Source: Pseudalkalibacillus salsuginis (GTDB lineage: Bacteria > Bacillota > Bacilli > Bacillales > Fictibacillaceae). From it: 64,000 bases of DNA. Numbering within the stretch: position 1 is the first letter of the stretch; every line of letters begins with the position of its first letter. The DNA is taken from positions 868,001-932,000 of the forward strand of contig NZ_JAKJHW010000002.1 in assembly GCF_021646685.1 (NCBI RefSeq). The letters are read 5' to 3'. Made by a program: the position numbers and the translations under genes. Below, piece by piece: positions 40,558 through 51,379 of this stretch. The notes beneath the pieces were generated by a model. That model had not been told where the DNA came from, searched no databases, and saw nothing but the letters and a program-made list of their open reading frames with translations.

Positions 40558-40719
40558 TATAATCACCTGGAGAAAGGTACCCCCTTTCCCGTTCGGTGAA
40601 TTCGACGACAAATGAACATGTTCAGACCACTGAAAAATCTATCGGACTTTCTCATCCGGAAGCCGAGCGTAGATCGAGCCAGTGATATCTTCCACTTGGA
40701 GATATTGCTGGCTTTTTTT
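40558..40719 (+). promoter_or_regulatory. Structured leader of glaH with intrinsic terminator (candidate attenuator or riboswitch)
   Basis: Visible hairpins are CACC...GGTG closing a GAAAGG / CCTTTC stem (about 40565-40604), the palindrome TGAACATGTTCA (40612-40623), and ATCTA...TAGAT enclosing CGGA / TCCG (about 40638-40674). A 15-bp terminator stem follows at 40678-40712 (GCCAGTGATATCTTC with GGAGATATTGCTGGC), then seven T residues. A downstream segment TATCACTGGC (40732-40741) is perfectly complementary to the terminator's 5' arm. I could not match it to known riboswitch or T-box consensus sequences. Confidence 0.65.
40678..40719 (+). terminator. Intrinsic terminator in the glaH leader
   Basis: A 15-bp stem with G-U pairs and a five-base loop is followed by TTTTTTT. 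It lies 55 bases before the glaH start codon, inside the transcript, so it must be bypassed for glaH expression. Confidence 0.85.
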
Positions 40720-40773
40720 GATGCATCAGCCTATCACTGGCGGAATCGCCCAAAATTTCAAGGAGGAATTGAT

Positions 40774-41700
40774 ATGAATATGGTGAAATCTGATTTAGTG
40801 AAGTCTTTTGAGCATTTCAATGTAGTCCAACACCCGCAATCGAATCGTCTTTATCACATCGAACTGAAGGATGAAGCAGTGGCTGCCTTTTTGGAAAAAC
40901 ATCGTGATACGAGTCCACAACAACTCGAGTATATCCCTTACAGGCGTTATGTCATAGCAAATGATTTAAGAAAGGTACTTGGTGAGGATTTTTCAAAAAT
41001 GATCAATGAGGTGCTTCATGATCGTGAATTCGGCGGTTTCACTCTTGGAATCGGAAAGGTTGCATCCTCAGATGAAGATTACGTAAAATTCGCCACAGCC
41101 ATCACCCATCTGATCGGCGGCGTCAACTTTGATGCAATGTCAGGAAAATATTACGCTCGATTCACAGTAAAAGATACGGACAATAGCGACTCTTACCTGC
41201 GGCAGGCCTATCGCCTGTTCACCCTCCATACAGACGGGACATTCGTCGATGAGCCATGTGACTGGCTCTTGATGATGAAGTTCGCGGAGGAAAATGCATC
41301 AGGGGGAGAATCACGACTTTTACACCTGGATGATTGGGAAGAACTTGACTATTATGCAAACCATCCTGTCGCATCCACAAAAATACCATACAAATCCCCA
41401 GCAAGTAAAAATGTCAGCAAGACCGTTTACAACAATACTTTTTATGAGCATAACGGGAAAACCTGCATCCAATTCATCGATCAGTTTGCATATCCTGATA
41501 CAATAGAACAAGCGGAATATTTGAAGTCATTGTCTGAATCAATGGAGAGCAGTTCAGCTGTAGTCGAACTAGAGCTTCCTGTAGGTAGTCTCGTCGTATT
41601 GAACAACACGTTCTGGCTGCATGGAAGAGCAGCATTTGAAAAACACCCGGACTTGCATCGTGAGCTGTTGCGCCAACGAGGCTATTTTAAAAAAGTATAA
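40774..41700 (+). CDS. glaH: Glutarate 2-hydroxylase (CsiD/GlaH family)
   Basis: The 308-residue Fe(II)/2-oxoglutarate-dependent dioxygenase has the iron motif His152-x-Asp154 in FTLHTDGTFVDEP and the distal His283 in FWLHGRAAF, with Arg residues in ELLRQRGYF for 2-oxoglutarate. RFTVKDTDNSDSYLRQAYR and VLNNTFWLHGR are typical of CsiD. It converts glutarate to L-2-hydroxyglutarate. The ATG at 40774 has AAGGAGG eight bases before it; the frame is open for 54 more codons upstream, but that region is the RNA leader. lhgO, whose product oxidises the L-2-hydroxyglutarate, follows after 44 bp. Confidence 0.92.
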   Translation: MNMVKSDLVKSFEHFNVVQHPQSNRLYHIELKDEAVAAFLEKHRDTSPQQLEYIPYRRYVIANDLRKVLGEDFSKMINEVLHDREFGGFTLGIGKVASSDEDYVKFATAITHLIGGVNFDAMSGKYYARFTVKDTDNSDSYLRQAYRLFTLHTDGTFVDEPCDWLLMMKFAEENASGGESRLLHLDDWEELDYYANHPVASTKIPYKSPASKNVSKTVYNNTFYEHNGKTCIQFIDQFAYPDTIEQAEYLKSLSESMESSSAVVELELPVGSLVVLNNTFWLHGRAAFEKHPDLHRELLRQRGYFKKV

Positions 41701-41744
41701 AGTTGATCAAAGCGAAATCAACAATATAGAACGGAGGTAAACTT

Positions 41745-42956
41745 ATGTATGATGTCATGATCATCGGTGGTGGAATCGTCGGCCTTTCTACTGCCTATGC
41801 CCTGACCGAGCACCATCCGTCATTGAAAATCGCTGTGCTCGAAAAGGAGAACAGCTGGGCAAAACATCAGACCGGGCATAACAGTGGCGTCATCCACTCC
41901 GGTATCTATTATAAACCAGGCAGTCTGAAGGCTCGATTTGCTAAGGATGGTGGTCGTAAGCTTGCAGCCTTCTGTGGTCAATATGGGATTTCGTATGAAC
42001 AATGCGGGAAAGTGATCGTTGCGACTGATGAAAAAGAACTGGATGCCATGCAAAATCTTTATGAACGAGGCTTGAAGAACGGCTTGGACATTACGTTGTT
42101 GGATCAGGCGGGATTGAAAGAGGAAGAACCGTATGTGAACGGGATTAAAGCGATAAAAGTACCTCAAGCAGGGATCATCGATTATGTAGGCGTATGCTCG
42201 GCAATCGTATCGGTTTTGGAAAATCGTGGCGCAGATCTCTTCTTGAGTACTGAAGCGAATGATATCAAGGAAAGTCCAAACGAAGTTACGGTAGAAACAG
42301 CTTCCTACACTTACAGGACGAAACATCTGGTCAATTGCTGCGGCTTGCAAAGTGATCGTGTGGCGAAACGGAGCGGGCAGGACCCTGATCTGAAAATCGT
42401 GCCGTTTCGGGGAGAGTACTTTGAACTGAAGCCTGAAAAAGAATATCTCGTAAAAAACTTGATTTATCCTGTACCCAATCCTGATTTCCCATTCCTCGGC
42501 GTTCATTTTACACGGATGATCGGCGGTGGCGTGGAAGCTGGTCCGAATGCTGTTCTAGGCTTTAAAAGAGAGGGTTACCGTAAGCGCGACATCTCCTTGA
42601 AGGATTTATCCGAAACGTTGACCTATCCTGGCTTTTGGAAGCTGGCTTCAAGCTACTGGAGGGAAGGACTGGATGAAATGATCCGATCTTTCAATAAAGG
42701 GGCTTTTGTTCGCAGCTTACAACGATTGATTCCGTCCATTGAAGCTGATGACCTGAAGCCGGCACCTGCTGGAATCCGCGCACAAGCCTTGAAATCGGAT
42801 GGATCGCTTGTAGATGACTTTTTTCTAGTCCATAGCAAAAGAAGCACCCATGTCTGCAACGCCCCGTCCCCTGCTGCGACAGCTTGTTTTCCGATCGGTG
42901 AACACATCGCTAAAGAACTGGATATCGAACAACCTATTAAAATTTCAACATCCTGA
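41745..42956 (+). CDS. lhgO: L-2-hydroxyglutarate oxidase/dehydrogenase
   Basis: The 403-residue FAD enzyme has the dinucleotide-binding MIIGGGIVGLSTAYAL motif and then KHQTGHNSGVIHSGIYYKPG, the diagnostic LhgO motif. NCCGLQSDRVA, PFRGEYFELKPEKEYLV and FPFLGVHFTRMIGG follow, plus GIRAQALKSDG at the C-terminus. It oxidises L-2-hydroxyglutarate to 2-oxoglutarate and passes electrons to the membrane quinone pool. Together with GlaH it completes glutarate catabolism, the late part of lysine degradation through cadaverine and 5-aminovalerate. GGAGG lies before the ATG. A terminator follows directly. Confidence 0.94.
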   Translation: MYDVMIIGGGIVGLSTAYALTEHHPSLKIAVLEKENSWAKHQTGHNSGVIHSGIYYKPGSLKARFAKDGGRKLAAFCGQYGISYEQCGKVIVATDEKELDAMQNLYERGLKNGLDITLLDQAGLKEEEPYVNGIKAIKVPQAGIIDYVGVCSAIVSVLENRGADLFLSTEANDIKESPNEVTVETASYTYRTKHLVNCCGLQSDRVAKRSGQDPDLKIVPFRGEYFELKPEKEYLVKNLIYPVPNPDFPFLGVHFTRMIGGGVEAGPNAVLGFKREGYRKRDISLKDLSETLTYPGFWKLASSYWREGLDEMIRSFNKGAFVRSLQRLIPSIEADDLKPAPAGIRAQALKSDGSLVDDFFLVHSKRSTHVCNAPSPAATACFPIGEHIAKELDIEQPIKISTS

Positions 42957-46501: not shown

Positions 46502-46831
46502 TTAAAGGGGCAATGCTGGGGAATCAGGCCAAACGGGATCTGATTCTGCAAGTGTCGGGCTGTCTGGCCAAACAGGATCGTCCTCGGGTTCTGGTCCATC
46601 AGGCCAAACGGGATCTGATTCTGCAAGTGTCGGGCTGTCTGGCCAAACCGGATCCTCCTCAGGTTTAGGTCCGTCAGGCCATACTGGGTCGGATTCAAAT
46701 GTAGATGAACTCTCCCACGGTGAGGTTTTATCCTCGCCTCCGCCATCATAAGCTTGTCCTCCTAATAGAACTCCTAGGACCATCACTCCACAACCGGACA
46801 GAAGAACCATTTTTTGAAACCATTTTGTCAT
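46502..46831 (-). CDS. Secreted tandem-repeat peptide precursor (candidate quorum-sensing pro-peptide)
   Basis: The 109-residue protein has an N-terminal export signal (KMVLLSGCGVMVLGVLLGGQ, likely cleavage after GGQA near residue 27; an LSGC lipobox-like match is also present). A short spacer follows, then two 25-residue repeats at 46-70 and 71-95 and a partial third at 96-105. They hold five copies of DPVWPD(G/S)P, at 48-55, 60-67, 73-80, 85-92 and 98-105, separated by short acidic linkers (KPEE, TLAES, EPED). No enzyme domain exists. GGAGG lies seven bases before the ATG and a consensus promoter is upstream. It diverges from an XRE-TPR regulator, as expected for a peptide and its receptor. 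The processing site and export route are unknown. Confidence 0.8.
   Translation of the reverse strand: MTKWFQKMVLLSGCGVMVLGVLLGGQAYDGGGEDKTSPWESSSTFESDPVWPDGPKPEEDPVWPDSPTLAESDPVWPDGPEPEDDPVWPDSPTLAESDPVWPDSPALPL
46517..46696 (-). repeat. 75-bp tandem repeats inside the peptide precursor gene
   Basis: Two nearly identical 75-bp units (46622-46696 and 46547-46621) and a 30-bp partial unit (46517-46546) are in frame. Such arrays can gain or lose units by recombination or slippage, which would change the number of peptide copies. Confidence 0.85.
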
Positions 46832-46868
46832 AAAGCACCTCCAAATAATTGAATATTTTTACATTTTT

Positions 46869-46897
46869 ATGATAATTTTAATATTTTAAATTGTCAA
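46869..46897 (-). promoter_or_regulatory. SigA-type promoter of the peptide precursor gene
   Basis: On the minus strand, TTGACA (46892-46897), a 17-bp spacer and TATCAT (46869-46874). Transcription would start near 46861, 30 bases before the ATG. The divergent regulator is encoded 152 bp away, so its binding site probably lies in this AT-rich gap. Confidence 0.75.
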
Positions 46898-46983
46898 TGC
46901 TTTTTTGAATAATATATTTAATTATTTAAAAATTCTTTCAATAAATTTACATTATGGTAAAATGAAATTGGGAGGCGATTTAT

Positions 46984-48315
46984 TTGGAAAGTAGTGTAGG
47001 ACTAAGGATTAAAAGGTTGAGGAAAGATTTAGGACTTACCCAGGGAGATTTAGCTGGGGATCAATTAAGCCGTGCCATGTTAAGCCTTATTGAACGAGAT
47101 TTGACTACCCCCTCCCTCCGGACGATTGAATACTTATCTCATAAGCTAGGTGTTTCCGTTGGTGATCTGCTAGGGGAAATCAAAGACACTTCCGTTTCTT
47201 CAACCACTTCAGAGGACATAAAGAAATCACTTAATATTTGTACAACGCTTTACAAAGTCAAGAAATATAAGGAAGCGGAATCTCGGTTGAAAGAACTCAT
47301 CACGATTGAACATGTCCCCTTCCCTGAAAAATGGCTGGCGCATAAACTGCTTGGCCAAATATATGAAAAACTGGATGAAGATGAAAAAGCACTGATCCAC
47401 TTCAAGGAATCCCTCTTTTATTTGTCTTCTACAGATACGAATGAAATTGTAGAGGTCTATTATTACAAGACTTTATCCAATCGAAAGCTTGGAAATTATA
47501 AAGATGGAATTGCGGCTGCCCTCAATGCTGCTGTACTTATCGAATCCTATCACACAAAGGTAGACAGTCTTCTTCAAATCAAACTTCTATATAACCTCGC
47601 CCTTTGTTATTGCCGTGTAAAAGAGTTCCAAAAAGGGCTTGATGTAATCAATAAAGCGATCGGAATCATGGAAGTGAATGAAGTCACTTATTCAAACGGG
47701 CATTTTTATATGTTGAAAGGTCTGGCGGAATTATATATGAACAAGTTTGCAGAAGGAATCGTTTCGACAAGAGGAGCGATTAAATACTTGAATCTCCATG
47801 AGCAGCCGGAAAGATATCTGGGCTCCAGAATCAATTTAGGGATTCTTTTACGAAAACACAACAAAATCGATGAGTCACTGAAGGAACTCCATGAATGTCT
47901 GGATGAAGCTTTAAAAGCAGATGTACCACGGATAACGGTGAATAATTACTATGAGCTTGCCCTGTCTTATCTCTACATGGAGAACATGAAACAAGCCGAA
48001 TATTTTGCTAAATGTGGTTTAGCCCTCGCCAAACCAAGATCCCATTTGCATGGTCAATGCCATTATGTACTTGGTAAAGTATTGATGAAACTAGGAAACT
48101 ATAAACAGGCACTGACAGAAATCATGAAATCCGAATCGATTTTCCAATCACAAAAAAACGAGTCATGGGTGGCACTGGTCATGTCCGAAAAAGCGATTTG
48201 CTATGCAAACCTGAATGAATATAAAAATGCTTTCCAATTTTCACTGCTGGCAAACCAGATGTTGCTGAAACAAGACATGAGGCTCATAAGTACCGAAATT
48301 CCGGTAATGAGTTGA
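46984..48315 (+). CDS. XRE-family regulator with TPR domain (RNPP/NprR-like peptide receptor)
   Basis: The 443-residue protein has an N-terminal XRE helix-turn-helix (about 6-62; IKRLRKDLGLTQGDLAGDQL, RAMLSLIERDLTTPSLRTIE). About nine helical TPR-like repeats follow (about 80-440; KYKEAESRLKELI, EDEKALIHFKESL, NYKDGIAAALNAA, EFQKGLDVINKAI, MKQAEYFAKCGLA, NYKQALTEIMKSE). This is the layout of NprR, PlcR and related RNPP receptors that bind imported peptides in the TPR groove. The start is TTG at 46984 with GGGAGG eight bases before and TGGTAAAAT as extended -10. It diverges from the repeat peptide gene, its likely ligand source and target. The signal is inferred, not shown. Confidence 0.85.
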   Translation: MESSVGLRIKRLRKDLGLTQGDLAGDQLSRAMLSLIERDLTTPSLRTIEYLSHKLGVSVGDLLGEIKDTSVSSTTSEDIKKSLNICTTLYKVKKYKEAESRLKELITIEHVPFPEKWLAHKLLGQIYEKLDEDEKALIHFKESLFYLSSTDTNEIVEVYYYKTLSNRKLGNYKDGIAAALNAAVLIESYHTKVDSLLQIKLLYNLALCYCRVKEFQKGLDVINKAIGIMEVNEVTYSNGHFYMLKGLAELYMNKFAEGIVSTRGAIKYLNLHEQPERYLGSRINLGILLRKHNKIDESLKELHECLDEALKADVPRITVNNYYELALSYLYMENMKQAEYFAKCGLALAKPRSHLHGQCHYVLGKVLMKLGNYKQALTEIMKSESIFQSQKNESWVALVMSEKAICYANLNEYKNAFQFSLLANQMLLKQDMRLISTEIPVMS

Positions 48316-48344: not shown

Positions 48345-48482
48345 GTGAACAGAGGTAGAAAAGTAGTCTATCGCGGTAGAACGTATATAGTGATATGGAG
48401 ATATGATTCCGGATACCTTGAGATAAAGGGTGACTTCAGAACATACCTTGTTCACGAAAGAGACGTTAAATATGTAGGATAG
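48345..48482 (+). CDS. Small basic protein downstream of the TPR regulator
   Basis: The 45-codon frame starts at GTG 48345, eight bases after AAGGAGG, and 29 bp after the regulator's stop, so it is probably co-transcribed. The product, MNRGRKVVYRGRTYIVIWRY and then DSGYLEIKGDFRTYLVHERD, ending VKYVG, has alternating beta-strand pattern and high charge. It has no signal sequence, so it is unlikely to be the pheromone. The family is not recognised. Confidence 0.65.
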   Translation: MNRGRKVVYRGRTYIVIWRYDSGYLEIKGDFRTYLVHERDVKYVG

Positions 48483-50368: not shown

Positions 50369-51379
50369 ATGACTGATGTCCGACTGATTCCTTATCAAGT
50401 GGAAGAGATCATCGAAGAATTGACGAATATCCCTGAAGGTGTCCAGATGATTGAAGCTCCTGAATTATGGGACAAGGCTGACAAGGGTAAAGGGAACGTC
50501 GTTGCAATCATTGATACGGGTTGCCAAACAAACCATCCTGACTTAGAAGGGCGGGTGATTGCGGGCCGTAACTTTACAACTGACTATAATAGTGATCCAG
50601 ACAATTATTTAGATAACAACGGACATGGCACTCACGTTGCTGGTACCATCGCTGCGATCGGAAGAGATAACCGGATTGCAGGTGTTGCCCCCGAAACCAA
50701 TCTGTTGATATTGAAAGTATTGACCAAGCAAGGAAGCGGCAGGATGGAATGGATTGTCGATGCAATTCGCCATGCTGTTGACTGGACTGGGCCTGATGGA
50801 GAAAAAGTGAAGGTCATCTCCATGTCGCTTGGTGGTCCTCAAGGTACTGATGAATTACATGATGTAATCAAATATGCTGTCGACAATCATGTATGTGTCG
50901 TTTGCGCTGCAGGTAATGAAGGTGACAATCAAGAGGATACTGATGAGTTCTCCTATCCAGGTGCTTATAATGAAGTCATCCAAGTCGGCGCAGTTGACTT
51001 CCAGCGAAGAATCGCCCGGTTTACGAATACGAACGATGAAATCGATTTAGTTGCACCTGGCGTCAATGTCTTATCAACGTTTCCAGATAACAGGTATGCC
51101 AAGTTATCGGGAACCTCCATGTCAACGCCACATGTATCCGGTGCTTTGGTATTATTGAACACCCTTACGGCAAAGGAATTCGGGCGTTTCTTGACTGAGC
51201 CTGAGTTGTATGCACAGCTCATAAGGCGGACAACCCCGCTTGATTATTCTAAGAAAGCTGTTGGGAATGGTCTCCTGACCCTCGGGCTCGTTGATAAACT
51301 CGAAAGTTTGTTCAATCCCTATACGAAAATGTGGGAAAAAGAAGGTAAGAGCATATTGATGGCTGAAAGACGAGCTTAG
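50369..51379 (+). CDS. Intracellular subtilisin-family serine protease
   Basis: The 336-residue protein has no signal peptide and begins with the inhibitory pro-segment containing LIPYQVEEI, the LIPY motif of intracellular subtilisins. The S8 domain has the catalytic triad Asp49 (AIIDTGC), His86 (NGHGTHVAGT) and Ser250 (SGTSMSTPHVSG), plus oxyanion Asn183 in AAGNEGDN. Its size and pattern match Bacillus IspA. It degrades proteins in the cytoplasm after pro-segment removal, mainly in stationary phase. AAGGAGG lies eight bases before the ATG. A dispersed repeat follows its stop within 10 bp. Confidence 0.93.
   Translation: MTDVRLIPYQVEEIIEELTNIPEGVQMIEAPELWDKADKGKGNVVAIIDTGCQTNHPDLEGRVIAGRNFTTDYNSDPDNYLDNNGHGTHVAGTIAAIGRDNRIAGVAPETNLLILKVLTKQGSGRMEWIVDAIRHAVDWTGPDGEKVKVISMSLGGPQGTDELHDVIKYAVDNHVCVVCAAGNEGDNQEDTDEFSYPGAYNEVIQVGAVDFQRRIARFTNTNDEIDLVAPGVNVLSTFPDNRYAKLSGTSMSTPHVSGALVLLNTLTAKEFGRFLTEPELYAQLIRRTTPLDYSKKAVGNGLLTLGLVDKLESLFNPYTKMWEKEGKSILMAERRA

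Follow-up and report, generated by a model that had tools for sequence, protein, structure and literature searches.

A probable RRNPP-type peptide-signaling pair with a multicopy precursor encoded divergently from its proposed receptor in Pseudalkalibacillus

Introduction

Does a small repeat protein encoded back to back with an HTH-TPR regulator supply the signal to which that regulator responds? The question is raised by a locus in a 64,000-nucleotide stretch of the Pseudalkalibacillus salsuginis genome, referred to here as the window. The original prediction, made from this DNA alone, paired a 109-residue exported protein carrying five copies of DPVWPD(G/S)P with a divergently encoded 443-residue regulator laid out like the RNPP receptors NprR and PlcR. 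We followed up this pairing at the locus itself, in the genus, and among relatives in other families.

A five-copy pro-peptide gene

The repeat frame was as predicted, with five DPVWPD(G/S)P units following a hydrophobic region in the minus-strand ORF 46502-46831 (Table 1). Its N terminus is basic and then hydrophobic and signal-like by hydropathy, at about residues 1 to 28. With regard to the Sec export criterion for RRNPP(A) systems, hydropathy and the basic N terminus are the sole indications in the pro-peptide. The linkers read, in order, GPKPEE, SPTLAES, GPEPED, and SPTLAES, with SPALPL after the last unit. The short acidic linkers that had been predicted are present between the units and contain proline as well, but they alternate, and the block repeated at the DNA level therefore spans two units, or 75 bp. 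Independent detection of tandem arrays returned a period of 75, with 2.3 copies and a score of 278.

A degenerate motif pattern matched five times genome-wide, always inside the pro-peptide gene, compared to one match for a reversed control pattern. Searches of Pfam and NCBIfam to an E value of 1 gave no match for the pro-peptide. A chance repeat or low-complexity artifact was ruled out, as the units differ at synonymous sites. We also rejected a lipoprotein reading. LSGC in the window precursor and LAGC in that of another genus genome, G004, are absent from the other six genus precursors, and with two of eight there is therefore no conserved lipobox.

Table 1. Features of the locus, in window coordinates
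Feature	Position	Strand	Remark
Multicopy pro-peptide gene, 109 aa	46502..46831	-	ATG start; signal-like N terminus, then repeats
DPVWPD unit 1	46673..46690	-	
DPVWPD unit 2	46637..46654	-	
DPVWPD unit 3	46598..46615	-	
DPVWPD unit 4	46562..46579	-	
DPVWPD unit 5	46523..46540	-	
Ribosome-binding site GGAGGTGC of pro-peptide gene	46836..46843	-	Read from sequence
Sigma-A-type promoter match of pro-peptide gene, TTGACA-17-TATCAT	46869..46897	-	11 of 12 consensus positions
AT-rich block between both promoters, candidate operator	46902..46932		Kept in most genus loci
Extended -10 TGGTAAAAT of regulator gene	46955..46963	+	Same sequence at all eight genus loci
XRE-type HTH plus TPR regulator, 443 aa, proposed receptor	46984..48315	+	TTG start with GGGAGGCGAT
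HTH_3 domain, residues 9-62	47008..47169	+	Pfam
TPR superhelix, 18 helices (9 pairs), residues 76-429	47209..48270	+	AlphaFold2 model, Pfam
45-aa ORF directly downstream of regulator	48345..48482	+	Conserved by tblastn at all seven other genus loci (49-96% identity)

The pro-peptide and regulator genes diverge from a gap of 152 bp. This region holds nine promoter-like sites, against a shuffle mean of 6.3. A TTGACA box with 16 to 18 spacing occurred in seven of eight genus loci, that of the window included; G004 is without it. The AT-rich block lies directly upstream of the -35 box of the peptide promoter, a position that would suit activation of that promoter. A dyad operator was unsupported, with its symmetry reached by anything from 2 of 40 to 39 of 40 shuffles across the eight genus loci.

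Conservation of the pair and of the peptide core in the genus

We looked among relatives for a repeat gene lying away from an XRE-TPR gene, the finding that would speak against the pairing. In all eight genus genomes, the motif lay divergently beside the regulator, which is 62 to 97% identical to that of the window in the other seven. At these eight loci, no exported-looking ORF was listed downstream of the regulator. The precursor frame is intact in seven of the eight. These seven precursors, of 79 to 182 residues (five above 100), hold 5 (window), 3, 8, 3, 5, 5 plus one degenerate, and 11 units. The genus precursor grew by in-frame repetition, to between 3 and 11 units.

Forty units in the intact precursors read DP(V/I)WPD, in 26 different 18-mer spellings. 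Compared pair by pair, they differed 256 times at the first codon position, 0 times at the second, and 2264 times at the third, with the first-position differences arising from the V/I exchange. The 41st unit is degenerate (DLAWPG, in G006), and the linkers vary in both sequence and length. That forty units are spelled in 26 ways implies that the peptide itself is under selection. Judged from this pattern, slippage would account for the amplification but not for the synonymous-only differences, and the peptide appears to be what is kept.

In G004, the array has contracted and the peptide gene meets a stop after 37 codons, ahead of its single remaining unit. The regulator of this strain is intact, at 97% identity, and the match to the peptide promoter is weaker. 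With the receptor intact and the peptide gene truncated, the strain lives without the peptide or only listens; it could be a listener, or the loss could be simple decay.

Among the remaining 26 family genomes, profile A1 found no regulator at 1e-30 and the motif pattern had one stray match, so the DPVWPD array seems to be specific to the genus. More distant regulators were found in the sister genus g2 with the broader A3 profile. A scan for two neighboring motifs in the GTDB-220 contigs (84,980 species, perhaps not including the window's own genome) returned 31 stretches, and three of these were the DPVWPD system, in Pseudalkalibacillus decolorationis DSM 14890, Bacillus sp. Marseille-Q3570, and “Rossellomorea aquimaris” EaN35-1. 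The other 28 came from other taxa with one match each and were set aside; none of the six that were run against the receptor profile matched. Isolated single motif matches (G015, G006:45416, and G007:C17) fell in frames without the layout of the pair and were likewise discarded.

The regulator resembles RRNPP receptors

Pfam bore out the predicted HTH-TPR regulator, as both HTH_3 and TPR_12 exceeded the Pfam cut-offs. Its 443 residues fall within the size and domain range of RRNPP(A) receptors (250 to 500 aa, TPRs, with or without an HTH). The AlphaFold2 model, built on the A2 alignment (pLDDT, 87.9; pTM, 0.74), shows an HTH plus 18 helices, and we propose that the modeled superhelix forms the peptide-binding groove. 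The NprR/PlcR receptor layout also held, since the model joins an HTH to nine helical pairs and the A3 receptor profile search matched both proteins: PlcR (2qfc) at 8e-19 over residues 3 to 175, that is, the HTH and first TPRs, and NprR (4gpk) at 3.3e-18 over residues 280 to 429, the C-terminal TPRs. Rap (3q15) followed below these at 2.5e-11.

The top of the same search, above PlcR and NprR, was occupied by engineered TPR proteins (best, 1.5e-67). After these came 5dbk, titled “Transcriptional regulator/TPR domain protein,” which we take to be NprR, and many generic TPR proteins were found as well. Given these generic and engineered hits, the homology match to RRNPP receptors is by itself unspecific. 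Foldseek comparison of the model to the PDB placed generic peptide-binding TPR proteins (LGN) first, with Rap-CSF (4gyo) at rank 39 and PlcR-PapR7-DNA (3u3w) at rank 43, at modest TM-scores. With LGN-type proteins in the lead, the fold alone therefore does not single out RRNPP.

Divergent W-P peptides beside related regulators in other families

Regulator profiles A1, A2, and A3 were run over the order, the class, and three other families, for 1327 genomes including overlaps. Relatives were the best matches per profile search, up to 30 each, and with loci taken for these best matches the set is a sample. After L094, L108, and L109 had been excluded, 114 regulator loci entered and gave 82 unique regulators. 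We then applied a filter for a divergent ORF with W-P. By position, the ORF had to start 20 to 500 bp upstream of the regulator on the opposite strand and span 22 to 220 codons. By features, it had to combine a ribosome-site match with a basic N terminus and a hydrophobic stretch, and its W-P had to come after residue 18.

Such an ORF accompanied 29 of the 82 unique regulators among the best matches (seven from the window's own genus), which is not a count of independent events, since the filter was devised after examples had been seen, the A3 profile drew in part on loci known to carry W-P, and related species overlap. In controls, the same filter passed 8 of 1155 other windows of these loci, 0 of 82 on the other strand of the same region, and 3 of 1640 mononucleotide shuffles. 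By A3 score, W-P was present in 20 of 29 regulators at 450 and up, 9 of 21 at 250 to 450, and 0 of 32 below 250. The 29 regulators carry nine family codes and twelve genus codes, and the more distant ones with divergent W-P peptides are 18 to 36% identical. The adjacency thus extends to other families, where W-P peptides lie divergently beside related receptors.

The core DPVWP or DPIWP was found in the window genus and at L082, L083, L088, L102, and L173. DPVWPD(G/S)P, predicted as the repeated signal, therefore holds for the window gene, but the most widely common core is DP(V/I)WP and not the 8-mer. Other cores were DEIWP, DEVWP, and DEEWP (L175, L177, and L180 to L183), LVWP and VIWP (family code f80), PPIWP (L106 and L107), SPVWP (L115), and RTWP (L105). 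Beside distant receptors, single-copy divergent peptides carry TDPVWP, FDPVWPTVK, MDPVWP, MDPIWP, or ADPVWPGGP, with the core at or near the C terminus. L175, from another genus of the window's family, has a separate five-copy DEIWP precursor, and the SPVWP precursor of L115 has two copies.

Of 50 regulators scoring at least 250, 21 had no W-P ORF by this filter; one of them, L004, is the G004 locus with its truncated peptide gene. At other regulators among these 21, divergent peptides that look exported do occur, carrying DPI or DPVGP at L090 and L128 and ending in ESDAWG at L124, and L091 has a leaderless DPIWPDA frame. No convincing divergent peptide candidate was seen at L084 to L087, L089, L092, L110, L119 to L122, L174, L176, and L178. 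A PW variant of the core occurs at L179 and L101, which also belong to the 21, and at L189, of lower score; their divergent exported-looking peptides end in ILPWIIKS, ILPWSIKA, or DALPW.

A quick receptor tree of 82 rows (SH-aLRT only, many long branches, arbitrary root) requires 11 changes in W-P presence over its whole extent and groups the f80 receptors lacking W-P, 24 in all, as a single starred clade. From these sequences, W-P is best seen as an old feature of these receptors that was often kept and sometimes lost. Three asparagines, N204, N284, and N320, lie in the first helices of their respective TPRs. They were found in 93, 100, and 93% of the W-P receptors (n = 29) and in 92, 83, and 29% of the 24 f80 receptors without W-P. 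In RRNPP receptors, such asparagines contact the peptide. R30, in the HTH, was present in all 29 W-P receptors and in none of the 24 f80 receptors without W-P.

Small peptide frames beside regulator relatives on Priestia plasmids

A tblastn search of PLSDB turned up a relative of the regulator on seven Priestia plasmids, 24 to 25% identical to that of the window and 70 to 100% identical to L102. Their hosts are P. megaterium, P. aryabhattai, P. filamentosa, and P. sp. J2. The divergent gap in all seven holds one to three small frames of about 28 to 31 codons, which in four of the plasmids were taken stop to stop, with no ribosome-site filter. They end in SDPVWPRV, ADPVWPRV, TDPVWP, MDPVWP, and, once, TDPAWP. 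None of the frames is a gene in the PLSDB table, itself incomplete. Carriage by viruses or phages was rejected: one viral contig matched, over residues 9 to 63 only, and no phage record did so with the L102 receptor as the query.

Past the gap, a gene annotated as RCCLKC-tail radical SAM is found together with an aquaporin-type channel; ArsR, ATP-grasp, and others lie on the opposite side of the locus, in an ars-like cluster. The Burkholderia radical SAM enzyme ArsL is described in an excerpt of PMC8552651 as making hydroxyarsinothricin. By analogy, our guess is that the Priestia cluster may do something similar. Quorum control of an arsenical product on these plasmids (L197 to L203) is possible.

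Comparison to known systems

In NprR-NprX, PlcR-PapR, and AloR-AloP, the peptide gene lies downstream of the receptor on the same strand, whereas in the genus loci it is divergent, and the pair is outside all three layouts. The NprX signal is SKPDIVG, unlike the core DPVWP. NprR itself is similar to the window receptor, being an HTH plus nine-TPR protein whose C-terminal TPRs our receptor profile matches. The available text of PMC9765709 places NprX downstream and notes repeats in 17 of 17 atypically large NprR-type precursors. PlcR is also an HTH-TPR regulator, matched by our profile over the HTH and first TPRs, with five TPRs (PMC12700828, in part) and with papR downstream (PMC9765709, in part). 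PapR7 is given as ADLPFEF (PMC6568020) and by eye is loosely like ADLVWPE of L114 and L116. AloR-AloP of Paenibacillaceae shares an HTH-nine-TPR receptor and a small exported precursor; an excerpt of PMC7425212 puts aloP directly downstream of the receptor and gives AloP13 as SHGRGG. Alo-like paralogues were recovered in family code f80. From family code and layout, we infer that the 24 f80 receptors without W-P are Alo, and in the quick tree, with its long branches, they sit apart, with the window regulator outside their clade.

In Rgg-SHP systems, the peptide gene is upstream of the receptor, as for the window pair, and is frequently outside the receptor operon. They differ in belonging to Lactobacillales, in PptAB export, and in degenerate TPRs (excerpts of PMC9765709 and PMC10075063). 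Rap-Phr systems with repeated Phr (phi105 and phi3T) similarly place several pheromone copies in one precursor, and an excerpt of PMC11343458 reports that duplicated copies are produced and active, with up to 8 copies. Unlike the window regulator, Rap has no HTH (PMC9765709, in part), and phr lies downstream. Multicopy RRNPP precursors of up to 6 copies, and Bacillales pheromones encoded downstream, are also in the part of PMC9765709 available. The original prediction had contrasted the repeats with RNPP signals that come mostly from single-copy precursors. With multicopy precursors already published (PMC9765709 and PMC11343458), repetition alone is not novel.

RRNPP_detector takes precursors of 10 to 100 aa by default and yielded 34 clusters, 13 of them known (PMC10075063, in part), and a range of 20 to 120 aa was used in PMC9765709 (in part). 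The 109-residue window precursor is above the former range, which is a search default and not a biological definition. A catalogue made at that default would miss longer members, including five of the seven intact genus precursors. The published 34 clusters (PMC10075063, in part) may hold members of the W-P receptor clade. We found no divergent layout with a W-P core across families in the texts searched, and supplementary candidate lists may hold relatives; nor did motif strings of the W-P type turn up in a signaling paper among those texts. Pseudalkalibacillus is unmentioned among the literature matches listed.

Interpretation of the locus

Conserved divergent linkage and PlcR/NprR-like sequence and architecture support the predicted pairing of the repeat gene with an RNPP-like receptor. 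From the sequences, we consider it likely that the locus is an RRNPP-type peptide-signaling pair whose precursor has been amplified in the genus. By the example of the RRNPP family, the exported precursor would deliver five copies of a short signal with the core DPVWPD, and extracellular proteases would cut the acidic and proline-containing linkers. The freed peptides would re-enter via an oligopeptide permease and bind in the groove of the TPR superhelix. Bound peptide would then alter the action of the HTH in the 152-bp gap between the genes, and perhaps at other sites.

Divergent regulator-target pairs are common, and the repeat protein might instead be the regulator's target, an exported effector (antimicrobial, immunity, or surface/ion binding), with the regulator sensing something else. 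Acidic, proline-rich repeats could act as a polymer, and we infer the ligand role of the peptide. However, the whole Priestia product of about 28 to 31 residues is a hydrophobic leader plus DPVWP, into which an effector would hardly fit. The short core is also retained as copy number and the remaining precursor sequence vary, and the regulator has a peptide-receptor architecture with profile similarity to PlcR and NprR. We therefore regard an effector as improbable. A small protein that is membrane anchored or secreted intact, never processed, and active outside the cell, with repeats that are mere slippage growth, seems to us more improbable still. Slippage alone would produce DNA-identical units, while those observed differ almost only at synonymous sites, and distant single-copy precursors keep the core at or near the C terminus, where known RRNPP precursors usually have their signal according to an excerpt of PMC10075063. 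What such a protein would explain is that copy number varies among species and that one species has a broken, contracted array, as slippage and decay give.

Along with its receptor, the short, sharply conserved core of the proposed signaling pair makes a candidate signal that is cheap to synthesize. The natural series of 1 to 11 copies lets the effect of precursor copy number in peptide signaling be tested, and a core common to several families raises the question of cross-species listening. More tentatively, and with some doubt, these pairs might form an undescribed RRNPP subfamily in at least two orders of the class. DP(V/I)WP would then have been kept in several genera despite receptors that are about 20 to 36% identical, the reverse of the usual fast diversification of signals. 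Dose might be set through copy number (in-frame repeats versus separate genes), hearing across genera could occur, and in Priestia the system might gate an ars-type biosynthetic cluster.

Neighboring genes and other peptide candidates

The 45-aa ORF downstream of the regulator matched no Pfam or NCBIfam family and is possibly cotranscribed with the regulator. A subtilisin-type serine protease (50369-51379, +), IspA-like by eye, is present in 8 of 8 genus neighborhoods; it has no visible leader, and we dropped it as a dedicated processing enzyme despite this conservation. Two genes at 40612-42956 (+) resemble, by eye, glutarate hydroxylase (CsiD/GlaH) and L-2-hydroxyglutarate oxidase and occur in 2 of 8 genus neighborhoods, within about 6 kb.

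The same genome encodes, beyond the window, another HTH-TPR regulator (L002; G000:C4:63311-64546, -) of 24% identity. Downstream of it, on that strand, lies a small ORF that looks exported and repeats AIDELPPM four times. Relatives of L002 are on plasmids of Cytobacillus, Mesobacillus, Priestia koreensis, and Geobacillus, and from its sequence it looks like a multicopy system of the NprR-NprX type. A weak peptide match in G003 was rejected as a different repeat. It is a 55-residue frame (L020; G003:C1:3337462-3337593) with three copies of RDAIIPD and no leader that we could see; a Rap-like protein of 361 aa is encoded divergently from it. The frame may be another repeat peptide or a decayed remnant. 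Finally, L129 and L130 of f80 have an exported-looking ORF with two to three copies of (V/I/F)E(D/E)PGP(L/M) upstream of the receptor on the same strand, and these repeats recall the DPG motif that an excerpt of PMC12700828 reports in AimR and subfamily 08 peptides.
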